From an uncultured Acidimicrobiales bacterium (lineage in GTDB: Bacteria > Actinomycetota > Acidimicrobiia > Acidimicrobiales > SHLQ01), in the NCBI GenBank assembly GCA_938041035.1, contig CALHYX010000021.1, positions 1-35,387 on the forward strand: a stretch of DNA of 35,387 bases, written 5' to 3'. The notes beneath the pieces were generated by a model. It saw nothing but the letters and a program-made list of their open reading frames with translations, did not search any database and was not told the DNA's origin. The translations under genes and the position numbers were made by a program. Below are positions 2-34,424 of this stretch, piece by piece. How positions within the stretch are numbered: the first letter of the stretch is position 1; each line of letters starts with the position of its first letter.

Positions 2-1036
2 ACCCAGACCGAAGCAGCCGCAGCCCTCGACGAAGCCCGGCGAGCAATCGAGGCCGGCGGGTTCCTCTTCGACGTCGAGCATATGACCTTCATCGAATAC
101 CTCGAGGTTTGGCTCGAAGGACTCCCACAAACCGACATGAAGCCCGGCACTATCAGCGACTACCGCAACGAGACCCGCCGATACATCAAGCCCCACCTCG
201 GCGACGTGAAGCTCACCAAGCTCACGCCCCTCCACCTCGAACGGCTCTACCGGACCCTCATGGCCGAAGGCGGCCAGAACGGTCGACCGCTGTCACCGAA
301 GACCGTGCTCCGAGTCCACCGAGTGATCCGCAAGGCCATCGGAGACGCCGAACGCAAAGGCATTCTGCAACGCAACGTCGCCCGCCTGGCCGACAAGCCC
401 AGCATCGCCCAGCTCGACACCGAACGCCCGGCATGGACCCCGGACGAACTGCGTACGTTCCTCGCGGCTGCGGAGGGTGACGAGCTCTTCGCCCTCTACC
501 GGCTCGCCGCGCTCACGGGCATGAGAAGGGGAGAGCTGTGCGGTCTCCGCTGGGAAGACGTCGATTTCGCTGGGCAGACGGTTCGAGTTCGCAAGGCCTT
601 GGCGATGATCAATGGCACACCATCGGTGGCTACCCCGAAATCACGCCGCTCCCGCCGAGTCATCGATATCGACGAGCGCACCACGCACATCATGAAGGAA
701 CACCGAGAAGGTCAGCGCGTTGCTGCCGAGTTCGTGGGTGCCGGCTGGCAGGACACCGGCTATGTGTTCACGACCGTTATCGGCACCCACCAACACCCCG
801 ACAACGTCAGCAAGCGCTTCGTCGCCCTCGTCCGCAGAATCGACGTGAAGTACCTCACCCTTCACGGGCTTCGCCACACCCACGCCACCCACCTGCTCGC
901 TATGGGCAAGAACCCGAGAATGGTCAGCGAACGCCTCGGCCACGCCGACGTCGCCTTCACCCTCCAGGTGTACGGACACGTCCTCCCCGGTCACCAACGC
1001 GAAGCCGCGGAGGCTGCAGCGGGGCTGCTGGACTGA
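2..1036 (+). CDS. Tyrosine recombinase / phage-type integrase, N-terminus outside window
   Basis: Site-specific DNA recombinase that would integrate or excise a mobile element. The frame is open from base 2 (TQTEAAAALDEARRAIEAGG...), which looks like an arm-binding domain, so the true start lies left of the window; the ATG at 83 is internal. Counting from that ATG, a SAM-like core-binding domain covers about residues 1-105 and the catalytic domain about 115-317. Catalytic residues are visible: Arg148 (TGMRRGEL), the hairpin Lys186 (TPKS), His261 and Arg264 (HGLRH), His287 (LGHAD) and nucleophile Tyr297 (QVYGH). All are present, so it looks active. It is followed by a low-GC two-gene unit and then tRNA-Lys, a usual attachment target for this family. 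The family call is firm; which element it serves is inference. Confidence 0.95.
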   Translation, partial: TQTEAAAALDEARRAIEAGGFLFDVEHMTFIEYLEVWLEGLPQTDMKPGTISDYRNETRRYIKPHLGDVKLTKLTPLHLERLYRTLMAEGGQNGRPLSPKTVLRVHRVIRKAIGDAERKGILQRNVARLADKPSIAQLDTERPAWTPDELRTFLAAAEGDELFALYRLAALTGMRRGELCGLRWEDVDFAGQTVRVRKALAMINGTPSVATPKSRRSRRVIDIDERTTHIMKEHREGQRVAAEFVGAGWQDTGYVFTTVIGTHQHPDNVSKRFVALVRRIDVKYLTLHGLRHTHATHLLAMGKNPRMVSERLGHADVAFTLQVYGHVLPGHQREAAEAAAGLLD

Positions 1037-12957: not shown

Positions 12958-15252
12958 ATGGATGCTGAAGGGTCGGGAATGGAACAGCAAGAATCGGTGG
13001 CCGAGGCCGCCGAAATCTCGGAATCCGGAGAGAACGGCGAGACGACCAAGACTCGGCGCGACGGGATGCGCCTCGGGCTGTTGGCCGCGGTGGCGCTGGT
13101 CGGCACGGCGTGTCGCAACCCCTTTGGCGACGACGAGGACCCGGGGGCCGAGTTCACCGGCATCAAACCGCTGACCGCCCCCGCCGACGACCGAGCGCAG
13201 GCCCAGGGGCCCGGACCACTGCCCTTCGGCGACGATGGCGAGACCTTCGCCGCCGTCGACGGGGGCGAGATCAAGTCCGCCGACCTGGCGCCGAAGCAGC
13301 CGATCGTCGACGGCAAGGTGCCCGAGGACGAGGCGCCCGCCGCCGCGGACAACAACGGCAACGCCGGCCCGCGCTTCGACGGCCCGCTCGTGGTGCTCCC
13401 GCCGGTGCGCAAGGTTCCGCCGACCACGACCTCACCCTCGACCACGGCGGCGCCACCCACCAGCACCGCCAAGCCACCGGCCCCGAAGCCGCCGGCACCC
13501 ACGCCCCCGGCACCGAAGCCGACGACCCCGAGCACCACCGCGGCGCCGACCACGGCTCCGCCGACGACGCTGGCGACGACCACCACCGCCGCGGTGGCGA
13601 CCACACTCGCCCCGACGACCACCGCGGCGCCGACGACGACGGCTGCGCCCACCACGACCGCCGCCCCGACGACCACGGCGGCCCCGACGACCACGGCCGC
13701 GCCGACCACGACGGCGGCCCCCACTACCACGGCCGCGCCGACCACGACCGCGGCTCCCACGACCACGGCGGCGCCGACCACGACCGCAGCTCCGACGACC
13801 ACGGCCCCGACCAACCCGGAGATCCCGGCCTCGCAGGCCCGGATGGTCGCCGCCCGCCTCACGTTCTCGCCGACCCCGGCCACCGACGCCGCCATGGTGA
13901 ACCTCGGTATCGCTGGCTGGATCGAGGATCAGCTCGCCAAGAACGGCCCCGACCCCGCCGTCGAGGCCCAGTTGGCGGCCGAACATCCGAGCCTGGCGAT
14001 GAACTTCGCCCAGAAGCGGCAGTACTTCCAGGACGTCAACCACTTCCGCGAGGAGATCGAGCTGGCGACCTGTTATCGGGCCCGCTACAGCGAACATCAG
14101 CTCTTCGAGAACGTTGCCCAGGTCTGGTACGACCACTTCAACGTGTCGTTCGAAGGCGAGCGTTGGTACCGCATCAGCGACTACCAGGAAGCGGTCATTC
14201 GGCCCCACGCCATGGGCCGCTTCGCCGACCTGCTCCGGGCCACGGCCGAGTCGTCGGCGATGATGCTGTACCTGCACAACTACCGATCCGACGCCCGCGT
14301 CGGCATCAACGAGAACTACGGGCGAGAGCTGCTCGAGCTGCACAGCCTCGGCATCGACCAGAACGGCAATCAGGTCTACACCGAGGAAGACGTCGCCGGT
14401 GCGTCGCACGTCATGAGCGGCTGGTCGGTGGAGACCAGCTCGTCGGCACCGAACTACGAGGAGTTCCGCTTCCGCCCCGAGTATCACTCCGACCAGGCGG
14501 TCTCGCTGCTCGGTGGGCAGTGGACCAACGCCGGGCTGTCGGGCAAGGCGGCCGGCGACAGCCTGCTCCAGTTCCTCGCCACCCATCCGTCGACCGCCCG
14601 CTACGTCGCCTACAAACTGTGCCGCAAGTTCGTGTCGGACCGACCGTCGGACGCGCTGGTCAACGACATCGCCCAGGTGTACCTGGCCAACGACACCCAG
14701 ATCGTGCCGGTGCTGCGAGCCATCTTCGCCAGCGCAGAGTTCATCGGCTCCGCCGGGCAGAAGGTCCGCCGCCCTCTCGACCTGCTCGTGGCCACGCTGC
14801 GCTGCCTCGATGCCACCTTGCCGCCAACCCCGACCGGTCAGGCCGGGCGGAACCTGCGCAACACCCGCCGCGACCTGCAACACGAAGGCTGGATGTGGCC
14901 AACGCCCGACGGCTACGCCGACAACACGGAAAGCTGGGCCACGTCGGCCAAGCTCCTCGGCCGATGGAGTGTCGTGGCCCGCATGGCCCGGGGGTTCTTT
15001 ACCAGCCCGTCCGACACCGGCCACGTGGTCGTCGATTACACGAACATCATCGGCCCGAGCGCGACGGCCGGCGAACTGCTGACCCGCATGGCGTACCTGT
15101 TCAACGTCGGCACGCTCTCGACCGAGGACATGAACGCCATCCTCGGCCTGTTCGGCCGCACGGTCGATTCGCCGATCGGCGACCTCCGCGAGGACGACAT
15201 CGAAGAGCTGGCGTCGTTCCTGTTCTCCCACCCCTTCTTTCAACTGCGCTGA
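12958..15252 (+). CDS. DUF1800 family secreted protein with Thr/Ala/Pro linker
   Basis: 764 aa; ATG 12979 is an alternative start. A basic segment and the hydrophobic run MRLGLLAAVALVGTAC suggest a lipoprotein or Tat-type export signal. Acidic residues and a long Thr/Ala/Pro linker (about 150-285) precede the DUF1800 domain (about 290-764). Recognisable are ARMVAARLTFSPTPATDAA, VWYDHFNV, NYGRELLELHSLGI, VAGASHVMSGWSV, STARYVAYKLCRKFV and DLLVATLRCL. DUF1800 genes are almost always paired with DUF1501 genes, as here (10-base gap). Function is unknown; the pair is often proposed to act at the cell surface. The linker is probably exposed outside the membrane and may be glycosylated; that is inference. 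Confidence 0.92.
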   Translation: MDAEGSGMEQQESVAEAAEISESGENGETTKTRRDGMRLGLLAAVALVGTACRNPFGDDEDPGAEFTGIKPLTAPADDRAQAQGPGPLPFGDDGETFAAVDGGEIKSADLAPKQPIVDGKVPEDEAPAAADNNGNAGPRFDGPLVVLPPVRKVPPTTTSPSTTAAPPTSTAKPPAPKPPAPTPPAPKPTTPSTTAAPTTAPPTTLATTTTAAVATTLAPTTTAAPTTTAAPTTTAAPTTTAAPTTTAAPTTTAAPTTTAAPTTTAAPTTTAAPTTTAAPTTTAPTNPEIPASQARMVAARLTFSPTPATDAAMVNLGIAGWIEDQLAKNGPDPAVEAQLAAEHPSLAMNFAQKRQYFQDVNHFREEIELATCYRARYSEHQLFENVAQVWYDHFNVSFEGERWYRISDYQEAVIRPHAMGRFADLLRATAESSAMMLYLHNYRSDARVGINENYGRELLELHSLGIDQNGNQVYTEEDVAGASHVMSGWSVETSSSAPNYEEFRFRPEYHSDQAVSLLGGQWTNAGLSGKAAGDSLLQFLATHPSTARYVAYKLCRKFVSDRPSDALVNDIAQVYLANDTQIVPVLRAIFASAEFIGSAGQKVRRPLDLLVATLRCLDATLPPTPTGQAGRNLRNTRRDLQHEGWMWPTPDGYADNTESWATSAKLLGRWSVVARMARGFFTSPSDTGHVVVDYTNIIGPSATAGELLTRMAYLFNVGTLSTEDMNAILGLFGRTVDSPIGDLREDDIEELASFLFSHPFFQLR
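13603..13815 (+). repeat. Tandem Thr-Thr-Thr-Ala-Ala-Pro coding repeat
   Basis: About a dozen copies of a roughly 15-bp unit encode TTTAAP-type repeats inside the DUF1800 protein. Synonymous codons vary, so selection seems to act on the peptide. The reverse strand shows a spurious Val/Gly/Ala open frame as a mirror. Confidence 0.85.
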
Positions 15253-19071: not shown

Positions 19072-20460
19072 TCAGTAGACCGGCCACTTGGCCTTGTCCG
19101 GTAGCCCCGACCGGGCGGTGATGGCCTCGCCCGCCGCCTGGCACCGGCCGTAGAACGACTCCTCGTCGATGGTGGTCGTACGCCCGTCCTCGACCACCTT
19201 GGCACCGTCGACGTACACGGTGTGCACGCCCCGACCGTCGGCCGACCACACCAGTTGGTTGGCCACGTTGAGCAGGGGCCGCCATTCGGGCCGGTCGGTG
19301 TCGTGCAGCACCACGTCGGCCAGCTTGCCCGCCTCCAGCGAACCAATCTGGTCCTGCATCTGCATCGTGCGGGCCCCGCCGATGGTCGCCATCTCATAGG
19401 CCATCTCGGCGGGGAACATCTGCGGGTCCTGGCGGCCGTCCTTGAACAACCCGGCCACCAGGTAGGTGGCCCGCATGAGGTCGGAGTAGTTCGAGGCGTT
19501 GTTGCCGTCGGTGCCGATGCTCACGTTGATGCCCATCTGCATCATCTCGGGCATCTTGCCGACCTGGGTCACGCCGTAACTCACCTTCAGGGCCGTGGTG
19601 GGGCAGTGGGCCACGTTCACCCCGGCTTCGGCCATCACCGCCAGCTCCTGGTCGTCGACCTGCACGCAGTGGGTCATGGCCACGTCGGGGGCGAGCACGC
19701 CGAGCTCGGCGAGGTGAATCATCGGCCGGTGGCCAAACTCCGCGATGAACCCCTCGGGGTCGAGCTTGGCCGGCGACATGTGAAAGCTCATGCCGGTGCC
19801 GTGTTCGGTGGCCAATTGTCGCGCCGCCTTCCACAGCGGGTCCGACGCGGTGGTGTGGCCCACCAGGATCGACCACGCGCCGAGCCGGCCATCGGCCACC
19901 GAGGCGTGGTCGGTGAGCTGTTGTTGCATCATCGCGATGGCCGCGTCGGTGTCCTGCTTGTACACGTCGGGCTCGGGCGGAAGATCCCAGATCCAGTTGC
20001 CGACCCGGCCCCGTATGCCGACCTCGGTCAGCCCGGCCAGGACTTCGTCGAGAAACCGGATCGTCCCCGCCTCCAGAAAGGTGGTGGTGCCCGACTTCAA
20101 CATCTCGACTGCGGCCAGCTCGGCCGACAGCCGCTCCTCCTCCGCGGTGTACACCGAGTAGAGCGGGCACAGCCACATGAACACGTTCTCTTCGAACGGC
20201 GTGTCGTCGGGGACGTACCCCCGGGTCAACGGCTCGCCGGTGATGTGGATGTGGGTGTTGACCATGCCCGGGGTCACCACGAACCGATCACCGCCGCCGA
20301 CCTCGGCCGCGGTGTAGTCGGCTTCGAGTGCGCTGGCCTTGCCGACGGCGACGATTTCGTTGCCCCGCACGGCGACGGCGCCATCGCGAATGACGTCGCG
20401 CTGGTCGTTCATCGTGACGACGTAGGCCCCCTTGATGAGCAGGTCGACGTTCTCAGCCAT
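19072..20460 (-). CDS. Amidohydrolase-superfamily enzyme (paralogue)
   Basis: 462 aa. Motifs are H70-x-H72 (NTHIHITG), the FHMSPA histidine, THCVQVDD and GTDGNNASN, with the CPTTALKVSYGV segment typical of the subtype III (TrzN/SsnA/cytosine deaminase) branch. As in its paralogue at 16647-17996, H-x-S-P replaces H-x-x-E, so the two probably share unusual chemistry. A GGGGGA Shine-Dalgarno lies just before the ATG. It heads a minus-strand pair with the LLM oxidoreductase and is divergent from a Rieske oxygenase gene. Substrate is probably an N-containing ring or amide; not proven. Confidence 0.9.
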   Translation of the reverse strand: MAENVDLLIKGAYVVTMNDQRDVIRDGAVAVRGNEIVAVGKASALEADYTAAEVGGGDRFVVTPGMVNTHIHITGEPLTRGYVPDDTPFEENVFMWLCPLYSVYTAEEERLSAELAAVEMLKSGTTTFLEAGTIRFLDEVLAGLTEVGIRGRVGNWIWDLPPEPDVYKQDTDAAIAMMQQQLTDHASVADGRLGAWSILVGHTTASDPLWKAARQLATEHGTGMSFHMSPAKLDPEGFIAEFGHRPMIHLAELGVLAPDVAMTHCVQVDDQELAVMAEAGVNVAHCPTTALKVSYGVTQVGKMPEMMQMGINVSIGTDGNNASNYSDLMRATYLVAGLFKDGRQDPQMFPAEMAYEMATIGGARTMQMQDQIGSLEAGKLADVVLHDTDRPEWRPLLNVANQLVWSADGRGVHTVYVDGAKVVEDGRTTTIDEESFYGRCQAAGEAITARSGLPDKAKWPVY

Positions 20461-20496
20461 GCATTCCCCCGGGTGTTGCGGCGCCGCTCAGGCGAG

Positions 20497-20504
20497 CCGT
20501 ACGG
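20497..20504. promoter_or_regulatory. CCGTACGG palindrome in the divergent gap
   Basis: The 8-bp palindrome lies between the divergent amidohydrolase and Rieske genes. It overlaps TACGGT on the plus strand and TACCGT on the minus strand, which could be back-to-back -10 boxes. Confidence 0.25.
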
Positions 20505-20533
20505 TAAGACCATCAGTCCACCTGGCGAAGGAT

Positions 20534-21580
20534 ATGTCCAAACGAGCCATGAGCGATAGGACGGCAGCGGCCCTCGACCGGCAGTGGTACGCCGTCGCGA
20601 CGGTCGATGCGGTTGCCGCTTCGGCGGCCGCACCGCTGGCGATCGAGTTGCTCGACCGGTCCTACGTGCTCTGGCGCAGCGCCGACGGCCAGGTGGTCGC
20701 CGCCCGCGACGAATGCCACCACCGTCAGGCCCGGCTCTCGCTCGGCACCCTCGCCGACGGCTGCCTCCAGTGCCCGTATCACGGCTGGACCTTTGGCGCT
20801 GAGGGTCGGTGCGTCCTCGTGCCTTCATCGGGCGATGACGCGGCCATCGCGCCGGCCGCTCACCTGAGCCCGCTGCCGGTGGCCGAACGGTACGGCCTGG
20901 TGTGGCTGTGTCCGACACCGCACCCCGACGGGGCGACTGCCATCCCGCATCTCGGCGTCGACGACGACCCGAGCTTCACCCGGCTGAACACCGCCATGCA
21001 GGTATGGAACTGCTCGGCCACCCGCATGATCGACAACATGCTCGATGTCGCCCACTTCCCCTACACCCACGCGGGCACGTTCGGCCGCGAACAGGAGCAG
21101 GAGGTGCCGCACTACCGCCTGACCCAACTCGACGACACCTTTCACGGCTATGAGTACTCGGTGGTCGTCAACAACGAGGGCGAGGCCAAGTCGATGTCGG
21201 GCGAGGGCGCCGATGTGATCGGCCTCGACATGTCGACCGGGTTCGCGCTGCCGTATTCGGTGCGCTCGACCATGTCGTTCGCCAACGGCATCGACCAGGT
21301 GTTGTTCATGACCGCCGCCCCGATGTCGACCGCCGCCTCCGACGGGCCGTGCCGCAGCCTGTTCACGTTCGTGTTGTGGCGCAACGACGACGTGTCCGAG
21401 TCCGGGGCGGACATCGTCGACTTCGAACTCGAGGTCAGCCGCGAAGACCAGGCCATGCTCGAGAACCTGACCGGCGAGCTCCCGCTCGGCCACGGCGACC
21501 TCGTCGACGTGGCGTCCGACAAGGCGTCGCTCGAATGGCGGCGCCGCTACCGCGCCCTGCTCGAGTCGGGCGCGGGTTAG
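20534..21580 (+). CDS. Rieske non-haem iron oxygenase, alpha subunit (VanA/PaO-like)
   Basis: 348 aa from the ATG at 20534 (ATG 20549 is possible). The Rieske [2Fe-2S] site is C61-x-H63 and C80-x2-H83 (CHH, CPYHGW). The mononuclear iron site is N168-x2-D171-x2-H174-x4-H179. Length and motif spacing fit the O- or N-demethylating and ring-oxidising VanA-like group rather than large dioxygenase alpha subunits. It has a normal bridging Asp171. No ferredoxin or reductase is adjacent. It is divergent from the amidohydrolase and convergent with the GNAT gene (four-base gap). Confidence 0.93.
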   Translation: MSKRAMSDRTAAALDRQWYAVATVDAVAASAAAPLAIELLDRSYVLWRSADGQVVAARDECHHRQARLSLGTLADGCLQCPYHGWTFGAEGRCVLVPSSGDDAAIAPAAHLSPLPVAERYGLVWLCPTPHPDGATAIPHLGVDDDPSFTRLNTAMQVWNCSATRMIDNMLDVAHFPYTHAGTFGREQEQEVPHYRLTQLDDTFHGYEYSVVVNNEGEAKSMSGEGADVIGLDMSTGFALPYSVRSTMSFANGIDQVLFMTAAPMSTAASDGPCRSLFTFVLWRNDDVSESGADIVDFELEVSREDQAMLENLTGELPLGHGDLVDVASDKASLEWRRRYRALLESGAG

Positions 21581-21584
21581 CTGG

Positions 21585-22052
21585 CTAGGGCGAGGTGACC
21601 GCGCGTCGAAAGGTGATCGAGGTCGGCCGGGTGTACCCCGTGTGGGCCGTCCGCTCGGTCTCCACGAAACCGAGGGCGGCGAACGTGGCGTGATTTTTCT
21701 CCAGCTCGATCCGGGTCTGGAGCTCGATCCACGAAACGCCCAACTTCCTCGCTCGAGTCTCGGCGTGATCGAGGAGCATTCGGGCAAGACCGTTGCCTCG
21801 TTCCTTTGTCGCCACGGCGAGCTTGCCGACATACAAGACGTCGGTCTTCAGTGTCATCACAACGCAGGCCAACGGAGGGGCACCGATCACCCACGTTTCA
21901 CCCGGCCCCGAAGCGAGGTCTTCGATCGTCAACCGATGTACCGACGATGGGGGATCGATCACCCCGTCCATGTAGGAGAACTCTCGCTTCACCAGTTCGA
22001 GAACCGCTCCGAAATCGCCCAGCTCAGCGATCCGAACACGTCTTGTTGTCAT
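21585..22052 (-). CDS. GNAT-family N-acetyltransferase
   Basis: 155 aa from the ATG at 22052. The acetyl-CoA loop is KERGNGLA in VGKLAVATKERGNGLARMLL, preceded by a beta-strand pair and followed by the HAETRARKLGV helix and a final GFVETERTAHTGY strand. The start overlaps the stop of the Rieske gene upstream by four bases (ATGA), so the two are translationally coupled. The acceptor substrate is unknown. A long continuation of the frame upstream is only a shadow of the Rieske gene. Confidence 0.9.
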   Translation of the reverse strand: MTTRRVRIAELGDFGAVLELVKREFSYMDGVIDPPSSVHRLTIEDLASGPGETWVIGAPPLACVVMTLKTDVLYVGKLAVATKERGNGLARMLLDHAETRARKLGVSWIELQTRIELEKNHATFAALGFVETERTAHTGYTRPTSITFRRAVTSP

Positions 22053-23254
22053 TCGGCGGCTGCGGCCTGGTAGCGGTCGATGAGCCACGAGTTGAACTGG
22101 GCGAGCACGCCCTCCTGCCACGAGTAGCTGCCGCGCGGCGCGAACCTCGACCGCATGCCCATCTGGGTGGCGACGTTGGTGGGCATGTCCTGCCGGTTGA
22201 AGTTCGAGACGCCGGCGATCGCCGCTTCGAGGGTGGCGCCGAAGTCGGGCAGCTCGACGGTCGACGGCGGAAACAGGTACGCCATGCTGAGCGCATGGGT
22301 GGTGGGCCCGGTGGGGTCGACGTAGAACCAGAACGCTGAGTCGGACTGGAATCCCATCAGCAGCGTCGGTGCCACGAGGGCGAAGACCACCCGTTGGCGT
22401 TCGGCCATGGTCGTGCCGGGCAGCGGCGGGAACAGCGCCTTGAACGTCGGGTTGAAGCCACCGTCGGGCTCGATGGTCTCGTTGAACCCGAACATCGCGA
22501 CCGTGCCGGGTTCGTAGTCGGTGTACGACGCGCCCGACGACGGCGCGAAGTCGTGAATGCCGTTGTGCAATCGGCTGTTGTGGTACATCTCCATGAAGTT
22601 CTCGATCATGATCTTCCAGTTGAACGGAACATCGGGGATCGTCATGGGGTCGACCGTCACCAGCGAGGCGACGTCGTAGTTGGCGAGGGTGGCGTCGAGC
22701 TTGGCCAGCCGGGGCGCGAGGGGAGCGGGGTCGGGCGCAAAGTTGGTGAAGATGAACCCCTGCCACAGCTCGACGGCGAGGCCGGGCAGTTGCACGTCGG
22801 CCATGGCGAACCCGGTGGTCCGGTCCATCTCGGGCGCGCCGATCAGCTGCCCGTCGAGGTCGTACACCCAGTAGTGGTACGGGCAGCGAAACTGCCGGGT
22901 CGACCCCGATTGCAGGTCGGGCGGGTCGAGCATGTCGTCGTCGGTGCGCTCGACCGAGGCCGTGATGCACATCGCCCGGTGCTGGCACACCGCCGACATC
23001 ACGCCGATGCTGTCGTCGGGTCGGCGCACCACGATAAGCGGTTCGCCCGCCCGGGTCACCGACAAATAGTCGCCGGCGGCGGGAATCTGTTCCTGGCGTC
23101 CAACGCACAACCATTGGTCGCCGAACACCGCTTCGATCTCGAATCGGTGGAACTCGGGGTCGTGGTAGACCTCCGGCGGCAGGCCGACCGCGTCGGCGTA
23201 GGTACCCCGCGATCGCTCCAGACTTTCGCTCGTCAGACCGTGTGGTAAGACCAT
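22049..23254 (-). CDS. Rieske oxygenase alpha subunit with bridging Glu (GbcA/CntA-like)
   Basis: 401 aa. The Rieske site is C90-x-H92 and C124-x2-H127, with an unusual insertion of about 15 residues between the pairs. The iron site is N219-x2-E222-x2-H225-x4-H230. The bridging residue is Glu, as known for carnitine oxygenase CntA and related trimethylammonium oxygenases, and not the usual Asp. The C-terminal RSRFAPRGSYSWQEG segment is shared with the Rieske protein at 31702-32877. It is leaderless by its -10 (TAGCTT seven bases before the ATG) and coupled to a GNAT gene. A quaternary-amine or N-methyl substrate is plausible but inferred. Confidence 0.93.
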   Translation of the reverse strand: MVLPHGLTSESLERSRGTYADAVGLPPEVYHDPEFHRFEIEAVFGDQWLCVGRQEQIPAAGDYLSVTRAGEPLIVVRRPDDSIGVMSAVCQHRAMCITASVERTDDDMLDPPDLQSGSTRQFRCPYHYWVYDLDGQLIGAPEMDRTTGFAMADVQLPGLAVELWQGFIFTNFAPDPAPLAPRLAKLDATLANYDVASLVTVDPMTIPDVPFNWKIMIENFMEMYHNSRLHNGIHDFAPSSGASYTDYEPGTVAMFGFNETIEPDGGFNPTFKALFPPLPGTTMAERQRVVFALVAPTLLMGFQSDSAFWFYVDPTGPTTHALSMAYLFPPSTVELPDFGATLEAAIAGVSNFNRQDMPTNVATQMGMRSRFAPRGSYSWQEGVLAQFNSWLIDRYQAAAAE

Positions 23255-23868: not shown

Positions 23869-24384
23869 CTACTGGGTTTCGAGCCAGACGAGTTCGTCGA
23901 CGACGTCGTCTTCGTCCCAACCCGATTGCACCCGGTGGCTGCCGTCTTCGTTCACGAAGACGAAGTAGGGCACGGCGTCGATCCCGAACTCATCGATCAG
24001 GGCGTCGACCTCATCGGCGTCGGCATCAGGGGAGAGGTGTTCGAATCCGTCGATGCCGTGTTCGACGACGAACGCGTCGACCTCGTCGGCGCTATCGACC
24101 GGTACGCCGACAAACTCGATGCCGGGGTGCGATTCTTGGAGTCCTGCGACCGCAGGAGCTGCCGAGCGGCAATGCGGTCACCAGGGGGCCCAGAACCAGT
24201 ACATGGTGCCGCCGGCGGTGTTGCCGACCGCTTCGACCGGCTCCGCGGGGGCGGTCACGGTGATGGATTCGCCGGGCGCGGGGTTCGCCGGTGACCGGTC
24301 CAGTTCGGACAGCGCGGTCGCTCCGCCGCAGGCGGCGAGGACCAGCGCGAGAGCGAGAAGGGTGGCGGGGAGGCGGACGGGCAC
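23869..24384 (-). CDS. Thioredoxin-fold lipoprotein, in-frame TGA read as selenocysteine
   Basis: 171 aa if TGA at 24178-24180 is decoded. From the GTG at 24384: signal peptide with lipobox L16-A-A-C19, linker, then WFWAPW-U69-P-H-C72. That is the thioredoxin CxxC with Sec in the first Cys place. The frame then stays open for 102 codons to a TAG, with a cis-Pro motif VPYFVF (Pro139), DGSHRVQSG and a closing helix, all expected of TlpA/DsbE-like proteins. The start follows a TACCAT -10 by seven bases; the ATG at 24420 is an alternative. A SECIS-like hairpin follows the TGA. It would be an extracytoplasmic thiol/selenol oxidoreductase. A standard call would end at residue 68, just before the active site. 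A recent nonsense mutation is the main alternative, but the intact frame and hairpin argue against it. Confidence 0.85.
24140..24160 (-). promoter_or_regulatory. Bacterial SECIS-like hairpin
   Basis: Minus strand: TCCTGC, loop GGTC, GCAGGA form a perfect 6-bp stem. Below it a single bulged C (24158) and two more pairs (A-T, G-C) extend it. The loop starts 26 bases after the TGA, inside the range known for bacterial SECIS (about 16-37), and has G in its first two positions. The GGUC loop and 5' bulge match the features SelB needs in E. coli fdhF. Confidence 0.8.
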
Positions 24385-24397: not shown

Positions 24398-24432
24398 GTG
24401 GGGACGGTCGTCGCGCTCATGAGCCGAGCGAC

Positions 24433-26654: not shown

Positions 26655-27590
26655 CTACTTCAATCCGCGGACGAACGGGCGGGCCAGCGCCGCCGGTGCC
26701 CGAACCCGGTGGGCGAACAGGGCCATGCCGACCAGGGTCACCACGAACGGCAACGACTGCAACAGCTCGCTGTTCACCTCATAGCCGAGGCCCTGCACCG
26801 AGAGCCGGAACGACAGCGCTCCGGCGAAGACGGCACAACCGGCGATGGTGCCTCGAAGCGTCCACCCGCCAAAGATCACCGCGGCGATGGCGATGAAGCC
26901 GCGGCCGCCGACCACGGAGTCCTCGAACAGGCCGATGACCCCGAAGATGAGGAACCAGCCGCCGATCCCGGAGGTGAACCCCGCGTAGTAGATGCTCTGG
27001 CGGCGGCGCCTGTTCACGTCTATGCCCGAGACGTCGGCCGACTGCGGGTTCTCGCCGACCGATCGCACCTCGAGGCCCCAGCGGGTGCGATACACCACCC
27101 ACCAGGTGAGCGGGATCACCGCGAACAGCAGGTAGAAGGGCCAGCGCTGGGCGAAGAGCGCATCGCCGACGAGCGGGATGTCGCTCAGCACCGGGATGAC
27201 CCAGCGGCCCGCGTGTTTGGTGGTCGGTTCGAGTTCGTTGTCGAGGAAACCGGCCAGCCCGAACACCAAGATGTTGAGCGTGAGCCCGACTACGAACTGG
27301 TCGGCGCTCAGCCGATGGCTCATCTCGGCCTGCACGGCGGCGACCACGAGTGAGCCGACGATGCCGGCGAGCAGCGCCACCGGCATCGATTCGGTGACGT
27401 CGTAGCCGACCGCGCTGGCGAACGCGCCGGCGAGCAGCATGCCCTCGACCGAGATGTTCAGCGTCCCGGCCCGCTCGGCCACCCACTCGCCCGACGCGGC
27501 GAAGATGAGGAACGCGGCGAACAGCGCACCGTTGATGTAGGTCGAATCGCTCGAGATGATGTCGATGATCGCGTCGAAAAAGGCGCCCAT
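26655..27590 (-). CDS. BMP-type ABC transporter permease 2
   Basis: 311 aa from the ATG at 27590; upstream frame is a shadow of the first permease. It has many membrane helices and the family segments ERAGTLNISVEGMLLAGAF and WGLEVRSVGENPQSADVSGIDV, where the latter is the coupling region toward the ATPase. It pairs with the permease encoded just upstream (two-base gap). Its homologues import nucleosides or other small solutes with a BMP binding protein. Confidence 0.93.
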   Translation of the reverse strand: MGAFFDAIIDIISSDSTYINGALFAAFLIFAASGEWVAERAGTLNISVEGMLLAGAFASAVGYDVTESMPVALLAGIVGSLVVAAVQAEMSHRLSADQFVVGLTLNILVFGLAGFLDNELEPTTKHAGRWVIPVLSDIPLVGDALFAQRWPFYLLFAVIPLTWWVVYRTRWGLEVRSVGENPQSADVSGIDVNRRRRQSIYYAGFTSGIGGWFLIFGVIGLFEDSVVGGRGFIAIAAVIFGGWTLRGTIAGCAVFAGALSFRLSVQGLGYEVNSELLQSLPFVVTLVGMALFAHRVRAPAALARPFVRGLK

Positions 27591-27592
27591 CG

Positions 27593-28738
27593 CTACACCC
27601 GCTCCGTCGCCGCGGCGCGGGCCCGGCGGCGATCGCGCAGGAACATGACCGCCGGGGGTATCAACAGCGCGAGCACGAGAAAGCCCTGGATGACATCGGT
27701 GATCCGGCCTTCGACACCGGTGGCGCCGACGAAGCTCGAACCGGTGCGGAGCCCGGCGAAGATGAACGCCACCGGGATGGCGACGAGCGCCTTCTCCCGG
27801 GCGACGAGGGCCACGAGCAGGCCGGTCCAGCCAATGTTGGTGGCGAAGCCGGGGACGAGTTGGTAGTTGCCGAACGAGAACCCGCCGCCGGCGAGCATGG
27901 CGGCACCGGCCAACCCGGCGAACGCGCCGCTGAGCATCAGGGCGGCGGCGCCGTAGCGGGTTTGGCCGACGCCGGATCGTTGGGCGGCTCGCGGGTTGCG
28001 GCCGAGCATGCGCAGCCGGAACCCCCACACGGTGCGGGCGAGCACCAGGCTCACGATGATGGCGAGGGCGACGGCTATGACCGCGGCGAGCGGCACCTCA
28101 TTGCCGAAGATTTCGGGGCGGGGGAGCCGGTTGTCCTCGGCGAGTTGGGTACTGACCTGATTGCGGTTACCCCGGTCGGCGAGGGGTGCGAGCAACAGCC
28201 AGGGCTGGCTCAGCCCGTAGGCGACGAGCTGACCGCCGACGGTCACCAGCAAGAGCGTCGACAACACCTCGGGGACGTTGCGCCAAAATTTGAGCAGGGC
28301 GGCGACCCCGGCCCACAACCCGCCACCGATCGCACCGAAGATCAGAATCAGGACGACGTTGAGCGGCCCCGGGCCGCCGATCAGGAACCCGAAGTAGGTG
28401 GCGAAGGCCGCGCCCACGAACAGCTGGCCTTCCTGACCGATGTTGATGAGCCCGGCCTTGCCCGAGATGATCGTGCCGACCGCCACGATGAGCAGGGGAG
28501 CGGCGGTGCCGAGGGTTTCACCCCAGCGGCCGGGTTTGCGCAGGCTGCCGTCGAGCAGGGCGTTGACGACGGGGCGCCAGTCGCCGCCGGTGGCTTCGAC
28601 CAGCAACGCCGACAACACCAGCGCTCCGAGCGTGCTGAGCCCGTAGAGCAGGAACCATTCGCCCGCGCGGCCGCCCTGGCGGGGCGCCCGGGCGGCGGCC
28701 GGGGTCGGCGTCGGGGTGGTCGGCGCGGTCGCGGTCAT
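27593..28738 (-). CDS. BMP-type ABC transporter permease 1
   Basis: 381 aa. A Pro/Thr/Ala-rich cytoplasmic start is followed by about ten hydrophobic segments. Typical motifs are SGKAGLINIGQEGQLFVGA and WGFRLRMLGRNPRAAQRSGV (coupling helix). Its start overlaps the ATPase stop by four bases (ATGA). It forms the membrane pore with the other permease. Confidence 0.93.
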   Translation of the reverse strand: MTATAPTTPTPTPAAARAPRQGGRAGEWFLLYGLSTLGALVLSALLVEATGGDWRPVVNALLDGSLRKPGRWGETLGTAAPLLIVAVGTIISGKAGLINIGQEGQLFVGAAFATYFGFLIGGPGPLNVVLILIFGAIGGGLWAGVAALLKFWRNVPEVLSTLLLVTVGGQLVAYGLSQPWLLLAPLADRGNRNQVSTQLAEDNRLPRPEIFGNEVPLAAVIAVALAIIVSLVLARTVWGFRLRMLGRNPRAAQRSGVGQTRYGAAALMLSGAFAGLAGAAMLAGGGFSFGNYQLVPGFATNIGWTGLLVALVAREKALVAIPVAFIFAGLRTGSSFVGATGVEGRITDVIQGFLVLALLIPPAVMFLRDRRRARAAATERV

Positions 28739-30354
28739 GCGGCGCCCCCCATGAGCAGACCCAGTTGCTCGAGGTCGACCTCGGATCGCGTCATCTCGCC
28801 GACGATGCGACCTGAATGCATCACGACGATTCGGTGCGAGAGGTCGAGGATCTCCTCGAGTTCACTCGAGATCAACAGCACCGCAACGCCGGCCTCCGCG
28901 GCCGCTTCGAGGCGTTCGCCCATGTATTCGATGGCGCCGACGTCGAGGCCCCGGGTGGGCTGCGCGGCGATCAGGACCTTGGGGTTCTGGGCCAGCTCCC
29001 GGGCCAACACCACCCGTTGCTGGTTGCCGCCCGACAGCGACCACATCGGGGCGTCGGGCCCGGCGCACTGAATGGCGAACTCGTCGATCATGGCGCGAGC
29101 AAACCGGTCGAGCGACCTGCGATCGAGCACGCCCCGTTGGGCCACCGCGCTCTGGTCGACCAGCACGAGGTTCTCGGCCAGGGTCATGTCGAGCACGATG
29201 CCGCTGTCGTGACGGTCCTCGGGGATCACGCCGATGCCGGCGCGGGCCATCGCACCGGAGCGGCCGTCGGGAACCCGGGTGCCATCGATCGACACGGAAC
29301 CGCTGTCCAGCGAGAGCAGGCTGGAAAGCAGATCGCCGAGCTCGCGTTGGCCGTTGCCCTCGACTCCGGCGACGCCGACGATCTCCCCGGCGTGCAGATC
29401 GAGCGAGAGGTCCTGCAGGGCCGGGGTGCCACCGGAACCGCGCAGCGAGGCGTTGGTGATCGAGAGCACCGGGCGGCGACCGTCCGACGCCGACGTAGCA
29501 GTCGAACCAGTGGTGGGAGCGATGGGGGTGTCGTCGAAGCCGTTGGCCTCGTCCACCGACAACACGCCCAGGGCTGCCCGTTCCGAGCGCAGCGACACCT
29601 CGCGGCCCACCATGCCGCGGGCGAGGGTGGGCGCGTCCGCCTCGGCGGCGAGCAGTCGGTCGACCACCTGACCCTGGCGCATGATCGAGATGTCGTCGGT
29701 GGCGTGGAGTACCTCGTCGAGTTTGTGGCTCACGAGCACGACCGCCCGACCCTCGTCGGCGACCACCTGGCGCAGCGAGGCGAACAGTTGCACCGACTCC
29801 TCCGGGGTGAGCACCGAGGTCGGCTCGTCGAAGATCACGATGTTCGGGTCGCGGCGCAGGCACTTGATGATCTCGACGCGCTGGCGCAGCCCGGCGGTCA
29901 GCTCGCCCACCCGGGCGTCCGGATCGATCACCAGTCCGTATTGTTCGGCGATCTCGCCGATGCGGTTGCGGATCGCCCCCGGGTCGAGCCGACCGGCCTC
30001 GCCCAGCGCGACGTTCTCCCACACGGTGAGCGCGTCGACCAGGCTGAAGTGCTGATGCACCATGCCGATACCCAGGTTGGCCGCGGCCAGCGGGCTGTGG
30101 ATCGCTCGACTCTCGCCGTCGATTCGGATCGACCCCTCGTCGGGCAGGACCAAACCGATGAGCATCTTCATGAGGGTCGACTTGCCGGCTCCGTTCTCGC
30201 CCAGGATGCCGTGGATACGCCCGCGATGAAGCTCGAGGTCGACCCGGTCACACGCGGTGACCGCCCCGAAGCGTTTGGTGATGTTGCGAAAGGCGACCGC
30301 CGGCGCGGCTCCCGCAGGAACCGCGCCGGCCGGATCGGTGGAACCAGATTCCAT
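28735..30354 (-). CDS. BMP-type ABC transporter fused ATPase
   Basis: 539 aa with two nucleotide-binding cassettes. The first has Walker A GENGAGKST (52-60), signature LTAGLRQRVE and Walker B IVIFDEPTS. The second has a degenerate Walker A (GVEGNGQRE, no Lys-Ser/Thr), signature LSGGNQQRV and VLIAAQPTRGLD. One dead and one live site is normal for the family (YufO/NupO and sugar importers). It overlaps the binding-protein stop by one base and the permease start by four. Confidence 0.95.
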   Translation of the reverse strand: MESGSTDPAGAVPAGAAPAVAFRNITKRFGAVTACDRVDLELHRGRIHGILGENGAGKSTLMKMLIGLVLPDEGSIRIDGESRAIHSPLAAANLGIGMVHQHFSLVDALTVWENVALGEAGRLDPGAIRNRIGEIAEQYGLVIDPDARVGELTAGLRQRVEIIKCLRRDPNIVIFDEPTSVLTPEESVQLFASLRQVVADEGRAVVLVSHKLDEVLHATDDISIMRQGQVVDRLLAAEADAPTLARGMVGREVSLRSERAALGVLSVDEANGFDDTPIAPTTGSTATSASDGRRPVLSITNASLRGSGGTPALQDLSLDLHAGEIVGVAGVEGNGQRELGDLLSSLLSLDSGSVSIDGTRVPDGRSGAMARAGIGVIPEDRHDSGIVLDMTLAENLVLVDQSAVAQRGVLDRRSLDRFARAMIDEFAIQCAGPDAPMWSLSGGNQQRVVLARELAQNPKVLIAAQPTRGLDVGAIEYMGERLEAAAEAGVAVLLISSELEEILDLSHRIVVMHSGRIVGEMTRSEVDLEQLGLLMGGAA

Positions 30355-31607
30355 CAGCCGCCGTATGCGGCGCCGGAGATGGCTCCCAGGTCGTCGTACA
30401 GCGCCTCATCGAAGGAAGCGAGAGCGCCAAACGAACCGTCGACCATGCCCTGGGCCGCGTCGGAGGCACCGCAGATGACGCCGCCGTTGAGACCGGGTTC
30501 GGTCGGGAACTGGAAGGTGGCCCCTTCGGTGAGCTCGCCGTCGATGATCAGGCGCAGGGCCTGCGAGGCGTAGACGCCGCCGTCGAACACCACGGCACCG
30601 GTCCACGGGATGTCGCGTTCGCACGCGTCGGCCGGGCCGGCGGCAAAGACCGCCATGCCTTCATCGATCGCCAACTGGCCCACCGGGTCGAGCGCGCCAC
30701 CGAGGTAGGCGTAGGCGAGCGTGGCGCCGTTGGCCTTGGCGTTGGTCAGCGCCGCGGTGGCGTTGGCCGAGTTGTCGAAGTCGAACTCGAAATCGCCGGT
30801 GCCCACGTACTCCATGGTGAAGTCGGGGTTGACCGACTGGAGCCCGTACAGCGTTGCCTCGTAGGCCTCGACCTCAAAGTTGATGTCGCAGCAGCCGAGG
30901 AACACCGCGCTGGTGCCGCCCTCTTCTTCGAGGATCGCACCCATGGCTACGCCGCCGGAGTAGTGAATCGCCGCACCCCAGTCGGTGGCCTGGGCGAGGC
31001 CGGGCAGTTCCTGGAACCCGGCGCCACAGTTGCAGTACCAGAAGATGTCGGGGAACTGCTCGGTGAGATCCGCGAGCGGTTCGGCGATCTCGCTGGCGCC
31101 CACCATCAAGATGTCGACGCCCTGCTGGGCGAGGTCCGACAACGACTGTGCGGCTTCCGCCGGGCCGATGTTGTCGCTGACGATCGGAGCGGCGAAGCCG
31201 TTCTCGGCCGAGTACTCCTCGGCGAAGTTCACGAGCGACTGGTAGTACCCGTTGTCGTCGCGGGGGCCGGCGGCGGCCACACCGATGGTCACGGTGCCGT
31301 CGCCGTTGGCGTCAAAGGCGGTGACGATGTCATCGGTCTCCGGCGGCGGTTCCTCGCCGTCGTCGCTCGGGGCCTCGGTCTCGGGCGGCGGTTCCTCGCC
31401 GTCGTCGCTCGGGGCCTCGGTTTCGGGCGGCGGTTCTTCACCGTCGTCCCCGTCGCCGGTGTCGTCTCCGCCGTCATCGTCGGCCGTGGCGGCGTCGTCG
31501 GCTGCGCCGTCGTCCCCGTCGCCGGCGCTATCGCTGCCGCACGCCGCGGCCACCATGGCCAGGGCGAGTAGCAGCGTCAGTAGGCGCATCATCGTGTTTT
31601 TCTTCAT
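30354..31607 (-). CDS. BMP-family solute-binding lipoprotein
   Basis: 417 aa from the ATG at 31607, chosen because GGAGGG lies about seven bases upstream; an ATG at 31643 is weaker. Signal peptide MKKNTMMRLLTLLLALAMVAA ends at lipobox Cys23. A very acidic linker (25-90) has three near-identical EEPPPETEAPSDDG units. The mature domain (about 95-417) has VTIGVAAAGPRDDNGYYQSL and FPDIFWYCNCG, AIHYSGGVAMGAI and DPVGQLAIDEG, as in the BMP/PnrA family. Known members bind purine nucleosides, but others bind different solutes. It heads the importer operon. Confidence 0.93.
   Translation of the reverse strand: MKKNTMMRLLTLLLALAMVAAACGSDSAGDGDDGAADDAATADDDGGDDTGDGDDGEEPPPETEAPSDDGEEPPPETEAPSDDGEEPPPETDDIVTAFDANGDGTVTIGVAAAGPRDDNGYYQSLVNFAEEYSAENGFAAPIVSDNIGPAEAAQSLSDLAQQGVDILMVGASEIAEPLADLTEQFPDIFWYCNCGAGFQELPGLAQATDWGAAIHYSGGVAMGAILEEEGGTSAVFLGCCDINFEVEAYEATLYGLQSVNPDFTMEYVGTGDFEFDFDNSANATAALTNAKANGATLAYAYLGGALDPVGQLAIDEGMAVFAAGPADACERDIPWTGAVVFDGGVYASQALRLIIDGELTEGATFQFPTEPGLNGGVICGASDAAQGMVDGSFGALASFDEALYDDLGAISGAAYGG
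31342..31445 (-). repeat. 42-bp tandem repeat in the binding-protein linker
   Basis: Two full copies and a diverged partial third of a 42-bp unit start at 31342, 31384 and 31426. The first two are almost identical, so the repeat expanded recently. It encodes the acidic/Pro linker. Confidence 0.85.
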
Positions 31608-31701
31608 TGGTTTCCCTCCGTATCCACGAACTCTGAAACTCATAGCGATTCGTCTTCCCCTCCGTAGTAATGCATCACATTAAAACGTCTGTGTCGAGAC
31701 C

Positions 31702-32877
31702 CTATCCCTCCGGCCACGCCGCGTCATAGCGCGCGACCAGCCAGCGGTTGAACTGAATGTGGCTCTCCTCCTGCCACGAGTACCGACCCCGCGGCGCGAA
31801 GCGGGACCGCAGGCCCTGCTGCACCTTGGTGGTTGCGTCCTGGTCCTGCTCGACGAACACCTGCACCCCGGCGTCGGACAACGCCATCTTCTGCTCGAAG
31901 AGCGGGTCCTCCAGCGCCGAGGGGTGAAAGATGTAGCCGATCTCCACGTCGATCGTCTCGGGCCCGGTCGGGCGCACGAGAAAGAAGAAGCACTGATCCG
32001 GCGCCGTACCGAAGCACAGGGTCGGCGGCACGAGCGCAAAGGTCGAGCGGGTGCGCTCCTCCTCGGTGAGTTTCGGGAAGACGTCCATGATCACCCGGTG
32101 GGTGGCGTTGAAGCCGCCATCGATGTGGGTGTAGCCGGCGGTGCGAAAGATGACGTTCGAGTCGTCGGACCACGGCACCGGGAACTCCGACATGCTCGAC
32201 GGACAGAAGTCCTGCACGAACTGGTGCAACCGGTTGGCGTGGTAGCCATCGTTGAAGTTCTCGAACATCACCTTCCAGTTCCACGGCATGCCTTCGAGCG
32301 TGAAGGTCCCGGGGCACACGGCGCTTTCGAGGTCGTAGTTGTCGAGGAACGGCGTGTAGCGCTCCAGTGTCGGCGCGAGCGGCGCCGCGTCGGCATCGAA
32401 ATTCACGAACACAAAACCGAGCCACTCCTCGACCCGAAGTTGGGGCAGGCCAAAGTCGGCCTTGTTGAAGTCGACCGTCTTCTCCATGGCCGGTGCGCCC
32501 AGCAGGCGACCGTCGAGGCTATAGTTCCAGTGGTGGTACGGGCATTTGAAGGTGGTGTTGTTGCCCTGGCCATCGCAGACCTGCATCGCCCGGTGCTGGC
32601 ACACCGCCGACATGGCCCGCACGGCGCCGGCCTTGTCCCGGGCGATGATGAGCGGCTCGTCGACGATGGTGACCGTGAACCAGTCGCCCACCTCGGGAAT
32701 CCGTTCGGCCCGGCCGACACAAAGCCATTCCTTCATGAACAGCGCCTCGGTTTCGAAGTCGAGGAACTCCGGCGAGGTGTAGATCGCCGGCGGCAGCGTG
32801 GCCGCCGACCCGACGTCGGTTATCGAGGCATCGAGGCTGGTCCGCAGCTCGGTGGTCAAAACGGTAGGCATCGTCAT
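31702..32877 (-). CDS. Rieske oxygenase alpha subunit
   Basis: 391 aa. Rieske site C93-x-H95 and C112-x2-H115 with normal spacing. Iron site N207-x2-D210-x2-H213-x4-H218. It shares the N-terminal WLCVGRAERIPEVGDW pattern and the C-terminal RSRFAPRGRYSWQE with the protein at 22049-23254, so they are paralogues, but it keeps the usual bridging Asp. The start overlaps the acyl-CoA-ligase-like stop by four bases. The 94-base gap to the BMP operon has no visible gene. It was probably transcribed from HyuB onward. No reductase gene is seen. Confidence 0.93.
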   Translation of the reverse strand: MTMPTVLTTELRTSLDASITDVGSAATLPPAIYTSPEFLDFETEALFMKEWLCVGRAERIPEVGDWFTVTIVDEPLIIARDKAGAVRAMSAVCQHRAMQVCDGQGNNTTFKCPYHHWNYSLDGRLLGAPAMEKTVDFNKADFGLPQLRVEEWLGFVFVNFDADAAPLAPTLERYTPFLDNYDLESAVCPGTFTLEGMPWNWKVMFENFNDGYHANRLHQFVQDFCPSSMSEFPVPWSDDSNVIFRTAGYTHIDGGFNATHRVIMDVFPKLTEEERTRSTFALVPPTLCFGTAPDQCFFFLVRPTGPETIDVEIGYIFHPSALEDPLFEQKMALSDAGVQVFVEQDQDATTKVQQGLRSRFAPRGRYSWQEESHIQFNRWLVARYDAAWPEG

Positions 32878-34424
32878 TGGCTGGCGCCCTCTTTGGATTG
32901 TTCGGCGAGCACGAACTTACGGATCTTGCCGACGCTCGTGCGGGGGAGTTCGGGGAGGAAGGTCACGTCTCTCGGCACCTTGGCCTTGCCGAGGTGATCG
33001 GCACACCAGGTGACGAGCTCGGCGGTCGCGGGTGGGTCGGCCGGGTCGGCGGCAACGACGAACGCGACCGGCACTTCGTCGCGCACGGCGTCGGGCGCGC
33101 CGACCACCGAGGCTTCGAGCACTCGGGGATGCGCGGTCAACACTTGTTCGACCTCGACGGTCGAGACGTTTTCGCCCGCCACCTTCAACACGTCGGACCG
33201 ACGGCCATCGAAGAAGAAGCGACCGTCGTCGCGGCGAGCCCGGTCGCCGGTGCGGAACCAGCCGCCGCGAAAGCTCGCTTCGGTGGTGGCGGGATCGTCG
33301 AGATAGCCGGCGAACAGGGTGATGCCGCGCGCACCGCCGACGACCACTTCGCCGACCTCGCCCGGCGCGACGGGCCGGCCGTCGGCGTCGTGGAGCTCGA
33401 CCGCGCAGCCGGGCGTGACGTAGCCCATCGACTCCGGGCGGGGCGAGGCAGCTTCGTCGGTGAGTACCGCGGGGATCGTCTCGGTCATGCCGTACAGCTG
33501 GCGGGGTCGGCAGCCGAACCACGTCGCGATCGTGTCGTACTGATCCTGGGCGATGTTCTGGGCGAACCAGCAGTGGCGCAGGGCAACGCCGTCGGTCGCC
33601 GAACCGCGGGCGAGAATCATGCGGATGGGGGCGGCGAACAGGCTGGCGCAGGTGGCCTGGTGGCGGGCGGCCTGGCCGAGAAAGCCGCTGGCCGAGAACG
33701 TGGACATCAACGCGACGGACGCCCCGGCCCACATTGCCGAGGCGAACGAGTAGTACTGCGCGTTGGCGTGAAAGAGCGGCAGGACGACGAGTTGGCGGTC
33801 GTCGGCGGTGAGCCCGGCCGCTTCGGCCATGGTCTTGCCGGCGAAGGCGTAGTTGGCCTGGGTGATCTCCACGCCCTTGGGGCGCCCGGTCGTGCCGCTG
33901 GTGAACATCACCGCCGCCCGGTCGGTGAGCGAAGGGAGGGGGACCTCGCTCACCCGGCCTGACGGCGGCGGTCCGACGTTTCCAGAGCCAATCTTGTTGG
34001 CGTCGGCTTCGTCGACTTCGATGATGGTCATGGCGGCCGGGGCCACGCTGCGGTAATCGTCGGCCCGGGCCACCGAACAAAACCCGACCCGGGGTTTGGT
34101 CCGGTCGAAGTGGTCGGCCAGTTCCGCGGGGCGGGCCATGGGGTCGCTCGGCACGATCCAGGCGCCGATGCGGTTGGCGGCCAGCCAGGCGGCGACGAAC
34201 GTCGGGTGGTTGGTCAGTGCCAGGTGCACGGCCATACCCGGCTCGACGCCGTGGTCGAGCAGGGTGGCGGCCAGGTCGACCACGCATGCGTCGAACTCGG
34301 CATAGGTCCACCGGGCGACCTCGCCCCTGGGCGCTTCGAAAACGAGGAACGGCGATGACCCGCGCGTCGCGACCGCGTTCGCCCAAACCTGGGCGATCGT
34401 CGTCGGGTCGGGCCAGTCGCTCAT
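32874..34424 (-). CDS. AMP-dependent acyl-CoA ligase (CaiC-like)
   Basis: 516 aa, normal for the class I adenylate-forming family. P-loop FTSGTTGRPKG (174-184), YGMTET, GGWFRTGDRARRDDGRFFF and the hinge GRRSDVLKVAGENV, ending with the catalytic Lys in PRTSVGKIRK. Overall similarity is greatest with crotonobetaine/carnitine-CoA ligase-like enzymes, which also act near Rieske trimethylamine oxygenases. It activates a carboxylate with ATP and CoA; the acid is unknown. It starts three bases after HyuB ends. Confidence 0.92.
   Translation of the reverse strand: MSDWPDPTTIAQVWANAVATRGSSPFLVFEAPRGEVARWTYAEFDACVVDLAATLLDHGVEPGMAVHLALTNHPTFVAAWLAANRIGAWIVPSDPMARPAELADHFDRTKPRVGFCSVARADDYRSVAPAAMTIIEVDEADANKIGSGNVGPPPSGRVSEVPLPSLTDRAAVMFTSGTTGRPKGVEITQANYAFAGKTMAEAAGLTADDRQLVVLPLFHANAQYYSFASAMWAGASVALMSTFSASGFLGQAARHQATCASLFAAPIRMILARGSATDGVALRHCWFAQNIAQDQYDTIATWFGCRPRQLYGMTETIPAVLTDEAASPRPESMGYVTPGCAVELHDADGRPVAPGEVGEVVVGGARGITLFAGYLDDPATTEASFRGGWFRTGDRARRDDGRFFFDGRRSDVLKVAGENVSTVEVEQVLTAHPRVLEASVVGAPDAVRDEVPVAFVVAADPADPPATAELVTWCADHLGKAKVPRDVTFLPELPRTSVGKIRKFVLAEQSKEGASQ

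Follow-up and report, generated by a model that had tools for sequence, protein, structure and literature searches.

A predicted thioredoxin-fold selenoprotein with a conserved hairpin behind its UGA in an uncultured Acidimicrobiales bacterium, and its UxxU sister branch

The window analysed here is the whole 35,387-nt stretch of contig CALHYX010000021.1, from an uncultured Acidimicrobiales bacterium whose genome comprises 4.89 Mb in 113 contigs and is 94.6% complete. On its minus strand lies a frame with the active site WFWAPW, TGA, PHC; the features of this gene are listed in Table 1. An earlier, sequence-only reading held that the TGA stands exactly at the first catalytic Cys of a thioredoxin motif and that the frame continues intact for 102 codons, with a cis-Pro region and a C-terminus. 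Both statements are confirmed, the former from the window sequence and the aligned relatives, and the latter by 102 codons up to the TAG stop, with VPYFVF at residues 138-143. Upstream, 12 nt separate the stop of a methyltransferase gene from the alternative ATG (24420) of the putative selenoprotein gene, and a promoter and terminator scan returned no site. From its lipobox, the product is predicted to be a lipoprotein; a simple lipobox pattern is found at 58 of the 63 places of the family described below.

The neighbouring minus-strand genes (19072-23254 and 26655-34424) encode an amidohydrolase, two Rieske ring-hydroxylating oxygenases, an ABC transporter and an AMP-binding ligase. The transporter genes comprise two permeases, an ATPase and a frame with a lipobox-like start (30354-31643). 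Together, these one-strand genes possibly form an uptake and degradation cluster around the putative selenoprotein gene. The short loci of the UPHC relatives L011-L015, with at most 1.5 kb of flank, contain none of the methyltransferase, alcohol dehydrogenase and ring-hydroxylase genes that neighbour the window gene, so the context gives no function; two weak ring-hydroxylase matches occur, in L050 and L028. Elsewhere in the window, a phage-integrase family protein (83-1036, plus strand; PF00589, 87 bits) lies near the contig end, and a tandem repeat with units of 18/36/54/72 bp (13549-13813) lies within the frame of a DUF1800 protein (12958-15252, plus strand).

Table 1. Coordinates of the putative selenoprotein gene, its predicted elements and the UxxU copies
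Feature	Position	Strand	Details or basis
Putative selenoprotein gene	23869..24384	minus	GTG start, 171 residues through TGA, TAG stop
Alternative ATG start	24418..24420	minus	183 residues; 36 nt upstream of GTG
Predicted lipobox L16-A17-A18-C19 (LAAC)	24328..24339	minus	sequence, by eye
In-frame TGA, predicted Sec69, first catalytic position	24178..24180	minus	frame and alignment
TGC codon of Cys72, the predicted resolving residue at the second catalytic position	24169..24171	minus	frame and alignment
bSECIS-like hairpin, stem UCCUGC/GCAGGA	24142..24157	minus	loop GGUC 24151-24148; 26 nt behind TGA
Pro139, cis-proline position of the thioredoxin fold	23968..23970	minus	sequence and family comparison
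UxxU copy in the same genome	L044:9471-9959 (G000 C106)		
Other 15 UxxU copies	L022, L036, L037, L050, L051, L055, L057, L059, L065, L066, L072, L074 (twice), L195, L196		

The openness of the frame is weak evidence by itself, because 136 open reading frames of at least 90 aa overlap this GC-rich window. The base composition past the TGA is codon-like, with GC fractions of 0.78, 0.35 and 0.76 at the three positions. A protein search at 1e-8 of this genome and 58 related ones found family matches in 26 of the 59, at 62 places plus one at the L022 edge. After removal of L043, a duplicate of L038, the 64 aligned rows represent 63 places (the first set), of which 41 are UxxC, 14 UxxU and 8 CxxC at the active site. 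At the codon corresponding to residue 69, only TGA or a Cys codon was found, and no codon other than TGA or TGC/TGT occurs at the first catalytic position of any of the 63 places. As 23 of the 59 genomes carry copies with an active-site TGA, the standard code cuts these family copies short, and standard annotation would probably truncate the window gene. In the tree, the window gene has a long branch, and its group contains four further UPHC copies (support 95/97).

These data bear on the possibility that translation simply ends at the TGA, or that this codon is a sequencing error, in a gene that is decaying or truncated. The window gene offers some room for this view: besides its long branch, its comparisons with L012, L013 and L014 give dN/dS values of 0.52-0.66 that are uninformative, with dS near saturation. 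However, 54 other first-set copies carry TGA at the same codon, which makes a read error implausible. The relatives have open frames and are under purifying selection past the TGA, with dN/dS of 0.027-0.213 in 11 close pairs, so the frameshifts and decay that would have spoken for a pseudogene are not seen in them. Together with the codon-like composition and the covarying hairpin (see below), this leaves the stop, error or decay explanation extremely improbable.

The genome contains the complete set of genes for Sec decoding that was named beforehand as a check (selA, selB, selC and selD), and each scores over its cut-off. The tRNA-Sec gene has the anticodon TCA and 65.3 bits against a cut-off of 47; selB (TIGR00475, 266 bits), whose copy is cut by the end of the locus, lies downstream of selA (TIGR00474, 389 bits) in the same orientation; and selD (TIGR00476) reaches 363.5 bits. 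Among the best 120 matches listed, the closest named SelA proteins come from Acidimicrobiales/Acidimicrobiia metagenome-assembled genomes, with 74-77% identity, and assign the genome to the class Acidimicrobiia. The selD gene (L040, G000 C107:4695-5612) itself has an in-frame TGA, in the context GAG-U-GCKL, at the position that Sec or Cys occupies in other SelD proteins. Among the 23 genomes with TGA copies, 22 have SelA, 22 have tRNA-Sec, 21 have both and all 23 have at least one; SelA is missing from G014 (73% complete) and tRNA-Sec from G015. Three genomes have Cys copies only, and two of them lack both SelA and tRNA-Sec, while the third (G025) has both. The presence of the machinery does not imply a family gene, because SelA matches occur in 45 of the 59 genomes and TGA copies in 23.

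A second alternative is that the UGA is read as Cys or Trp, without selenium, by a suppressor tRNA or after a change of the code. Cys is indeed the alternative residue at this site, and some bacteria have Cys tRNAs that read UGA. Against this stand the presence of selA, selB and selD and the UGA of SelD at its usual Sec place; moreover, the sole TCA-anticodon tRNA seen in a tRNA scan of part of the genome scores as tRNA-Sec. In addition, six Pfam-recognised genes of the window end in TGA, so the code is not simply reassigned, and the hairpin behind the TGA is missing from Cys relatives. Read-through as Cys or Trp is thus judged very improbable, and decoding of the window TGA as Sec is very likely from these sequence data.

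The sequence-only reading had also named a bSECIS element past the TGA as a check, and a hairpin of this type is present. Its GGUC loop, 6-bp stem, distance of 26 nt and energy of -9.4 kcal/mol all lie within the published ranges, namely a loop of 3-9 nt with G within its first two positions, a stem of 4-16 bp, 16-37 nt from the UGA and an MFE of at most -7.5 (PMC13188914). Taken alone, the window hairpin is mildly more stable than its shuffles (z -2.2, 7 of 200). In a gapless alignment of the 60 nt from the TGA in the 55 TGA rows of the first set, an 8-pair stem encloses the GGUC loop (columns 30-33), about 20 nt behind the TGA; of its 440 cells, 84.8% are paired, against 72.7 ± 1.0 in shuffled alignments. 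The covariation score of the stem is 0.431, against 0.208 ± 0.016 for shuffles and 0.084-0.131 for versions of the stem slid along the alignment, and neither value was reached in 500 shuffles. A held-out set of 21 TGA rows from later class-wide searches gives the same picture, with 81.0% paired (shuffled 66.2 ± 2.1) and a covariation score of 0.450 (shuffled 0.191 ± 0.027), each again reached in 0 of 500 shuffles; a new pair type, UA, appears at pair 28/35 in 10 of these rows. The third-codon-position pairs 27/36 and 24/39 covary, and on the tree they agree in 4/4 and a mean of 4.8/5 independent comparisons, respectively, too few for significance. RNAalifold alone predicts 3 of the 8 stem pairs, and pair 25/38 is mostly a mismatch.

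The GGUC loop with four core pairs is found in 51 of the 55 first-set and 17 of the 21 held-out TGA rows (68 of 76), and 8 of the 76 lack the loop or core pairs. The first-set rows without GGUC (L031, L035 and the L022 edge) seemingly have another, later hairpin, as judged by eye. Among Cys relatives, the same combination occurs in none of the 83 motifs in the best 80 Cys loci, where the letters GGTC are present in 12 and the four pairs in 2. These loci are the best 80 of at least 564 relatives encoded in at least 591 stretches found by a contig scan with the pattern WFWAPWC (Cys codons only), and as a control set they give nothing on the frequency of the Sec form. A pattern scan of contigs with the window protein matched 593 stretches, none of which encodes a relative. 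None of the 8 first-set CxxC rows has the loop; in L073, one of these rows, all four column pairs form when 60 nt are folded. The loop is also complementary to the GACC at the TGA (window 24180-24148, minus strand); when 51 nt of the window, L013 or L014 are folded, this competing pairing, GACCGCA/UGCGGUC, prevails, though it does not in the 45-nt and 60-nt folds of the window. An Rfam search of the gene region gave only four sub-threshold matches, and RF00031 matched neither this genome nor 14 control genomes, which makes that result uninformative.

With Cys written for the TGA, the window product matches Pfam Thioredoxin with 40.4 bits (cut-off 23.5) and AhpC-TSA (PF00578) with 27.1 bits (cut-off 26). 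No NCBIfam model reaches its cut-off: the protein scores 16.1 bits with NF041054 (WAxxUGC_long, curated cut-off 300), 33.2 bits with TIGR01068 (thioredoxin, 96.8) and 27.9 bits with the ResA model, far under its cut-off of 170, which sets it apart from the ResA/TlpA thiol-disulfide oxidoreductases. By profile, the nearest solved structures are Mycobacterium tuberculosis DsbF (3ios, 1.6e-43) and DsbE/MPT53 (1lu4, 1.4e-36). DsbF 3ios also ranks first in the fold comparison, and the structural alignments give identities of 30% (3ios) and 26% (1lu4). These proteins share with the window protein the WFW-PW-xxC active site and a single thioredoxin-like domain, but they have Cys at the position of the predicted Sec. 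They are exported, as the window protein would be, judging from its predicted lipobox.

Based on the results presented above, we have high confidence in one explanation: the gene encodes a thioredoxin-fold predicted lipoprotein, whose first-site TGA is predicted to be read as Sec via the conserved hairpin and which probably acts as a selenol/disulfide oxidoreductase on the outer face of the membrane. In the proposed mechanism, Sec-tRNA would be brought to the UGA by SelB bound to the hairpin. The U69 selenolate of the product may then attack a disulfide or other oxidised sulfur, the mixed bond would be resolved by C72 as a selenylsulfide, and a membrane electron carrier could finally reset the selenylsulfide. 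As to the direction of electron flow, gene content weakly favours reduction, since the genome has one DsbD_TM/CcdA-type gene and, at 94.6% completeness, no VKOR match. The DsbD_TM/CcdA-type gene adjoins a separate family copy without TGA, on contig C78.

The same selenoprotein might instead work as an oxidant and, like Mt-DsbF in vitro, introduce disulfides into exported proteins; this direction is possible but rather unlikely. Both DsbF and DsbE perform oxidative folding of hirudin, and DsbF is an oxidant in vitro (PMC3853704). The nearest solved relatives thus lend the oxidising direction some support, although the missing VKOR match argues against it. The UPHC motif also resembles the CPHC of oxidising DsbA. 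On the other hand, Sec usually gives a more reducing pair.

A further alternative is that the main substrate is a peroxide and the protein a surface peroxidase. Sec is a strong nucleophile, the AhpC-TSA profile matches all 58 family members scanned at E 0.001, and, as in peroxiredoxins, an Arg stands in the cis-Pro place of a sister branch. The window protein, however, keeps Pro there, and by sequence and fold it is nearest to DsbF rather than to peroxiredoxins. Bcp4-type entries excepted, peroxiredoxins are absent from the 50 fold-comparison rows used, which is no proof against kinship. A peroxidase role is therefore considered improbable for the window protein.

This sister branch carries two TGA codons in the active site. 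All 14 UxxU rows of the first set form one branch of the tree (100/99) and belong to the family of the window organism, where the branch occurs in 12 of the 19 searched genomes. When 395 genomes of the class were searched (match limit 1e-24), two genomes of another family, G313 and G353, yielded further UxxU copies. The cis-proline is missing in all 16 UxxU copies, and 13 have Arg there: the first 14 comprise 11 Arg, 1 Ser, 1 Gly and 1 Gln, and the two later copies both have Arg. In peroxiredoxins, the Arg at this position is catalytic. In the first set, with the truncated L022-edge row left out, the cis-Pro is kept in 40/40 UxxC, 8/8 CxxC and 0/14 UxxU copies. The wider set of 35 loci, of which two lack the pattern and five repeat first-set places, rules out that this loss is exclusive to UxxU, as it also occurs in two UxxC copies (L202, L205) and one CxxC copy (L208). 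The UxxU profile is nearest to DsbF (8e-30), and the two UGAs, 9 nt apart, are followed by one GGUC hairpin in 14/14 copies. In one genome (L074:1453-2232 and 2240-3043; G009 C253), two UxxU genes follow each other on the same strand, with 7 nt between them if the longest starts are taken.

The genome studied here has at least four family genes with TGA, namely the window gene (UPHC), a UPTC copy on C34, the UPFU copy on C106 and a copy on C11. It also has a CxxC copy on C35 and the C78 copy. We tentatively suggest, as a scenario less probable than not, that Acidimicrobiia exchanged sulfur for selenium stepwise in the active site of a single surface oxidoreductase, the two steps being represented by U-C in the window gene and then U-U in the C106 copy, without the cis-proline and usually with Arg. 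One hairpin would decode two UGAs, and a diselenide surface peroxidase or a selenolate metal binder would have evolved from an oxidoreductase of the DsbF type. With UxxC and UxxU sisters side by side, the genome offers a natural experiment on the effect of a second selenium in a thioredoxin active site, and the same pair bears on whether a single SECIS suffices for two UGAs.

The earlier view that such a protein is uncommon does not hold for this group, in which it is multi-copy and TGA copies occur in 23 of 59 genomes, and UxxC thioredoxin-fold selenoproteins were already listed in an existing catalogue (PMC13188914). UxxC and UxxU forms of this fold are both catalogued (PMC13188914, PMC9312934), so the window gene adds a member to a known kind; UxxU is also reported in a Prx-like 2 family (PMC2398784). 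The listed thioredoxin (PF00085), thiol-disulfide isomerase-like (cd02966) and redoxin (PF08534) selenoproteins share the Sec-first UxxC and the thioredoxin fold, a comparison made by table description (PMC13188914). The Prx-like thiol:disulfide oxidoreductase (PF00578, UxxC/UxxU) is alike in its PF00578 match and in having both motifs within one family; by Pfam match and motifs, the window family may be the same as this one, whose representative is WP_010940744.1. SelA and SelB are present in most sponge-symbiont bins according to one study (PMC5649159), and the main text of the deep-Sep paper does not contain the words Actinomycet, Actinobacteri or Acidimicrobi (PMC12013277). In the open-access journal papers searched, selenoprotein, thioredoxin and Acidimicrobiia were not found together. 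Nor did searches of this literature turn up a DsbF-type identity, a spread of multiple copies through Acidimicrobiia, a covarying GGUC hairpin or a U-U branch that lacks the cis-proline. This U-U branch, to which the C106 copy belongs, is more unusual than the window gene itself.

The hairpin is usable as a search model. Its covariance model gave 19 matches in this genome (E-values rough), among them the three known TGA copies. Fifteen of the 19 (E 1.3e-3 and weaker) were set aside: the eight inspected for a frame (L079-L085, L089) show no convincing one by eye, and the other seven are L086-L088 and L090-L093. The fourth place, C11:43008-43067 (E 5e-8), was not listed by the protein search at 1e-8 and encodes a lipobox protein reading LLLWFYAPH-TGA-PTC. 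This thioredoxin-like frame (L078:1261-1947; G000 C11) has a later hairpin, TCGAGCAGTTTGCTCGA, in place of the GGUC type. In L031 and at the L022 edge, WFYAPH or a similar stretch is likewise followed by TGA-PTC, and a later hairpin takes the place of the GGUC one.
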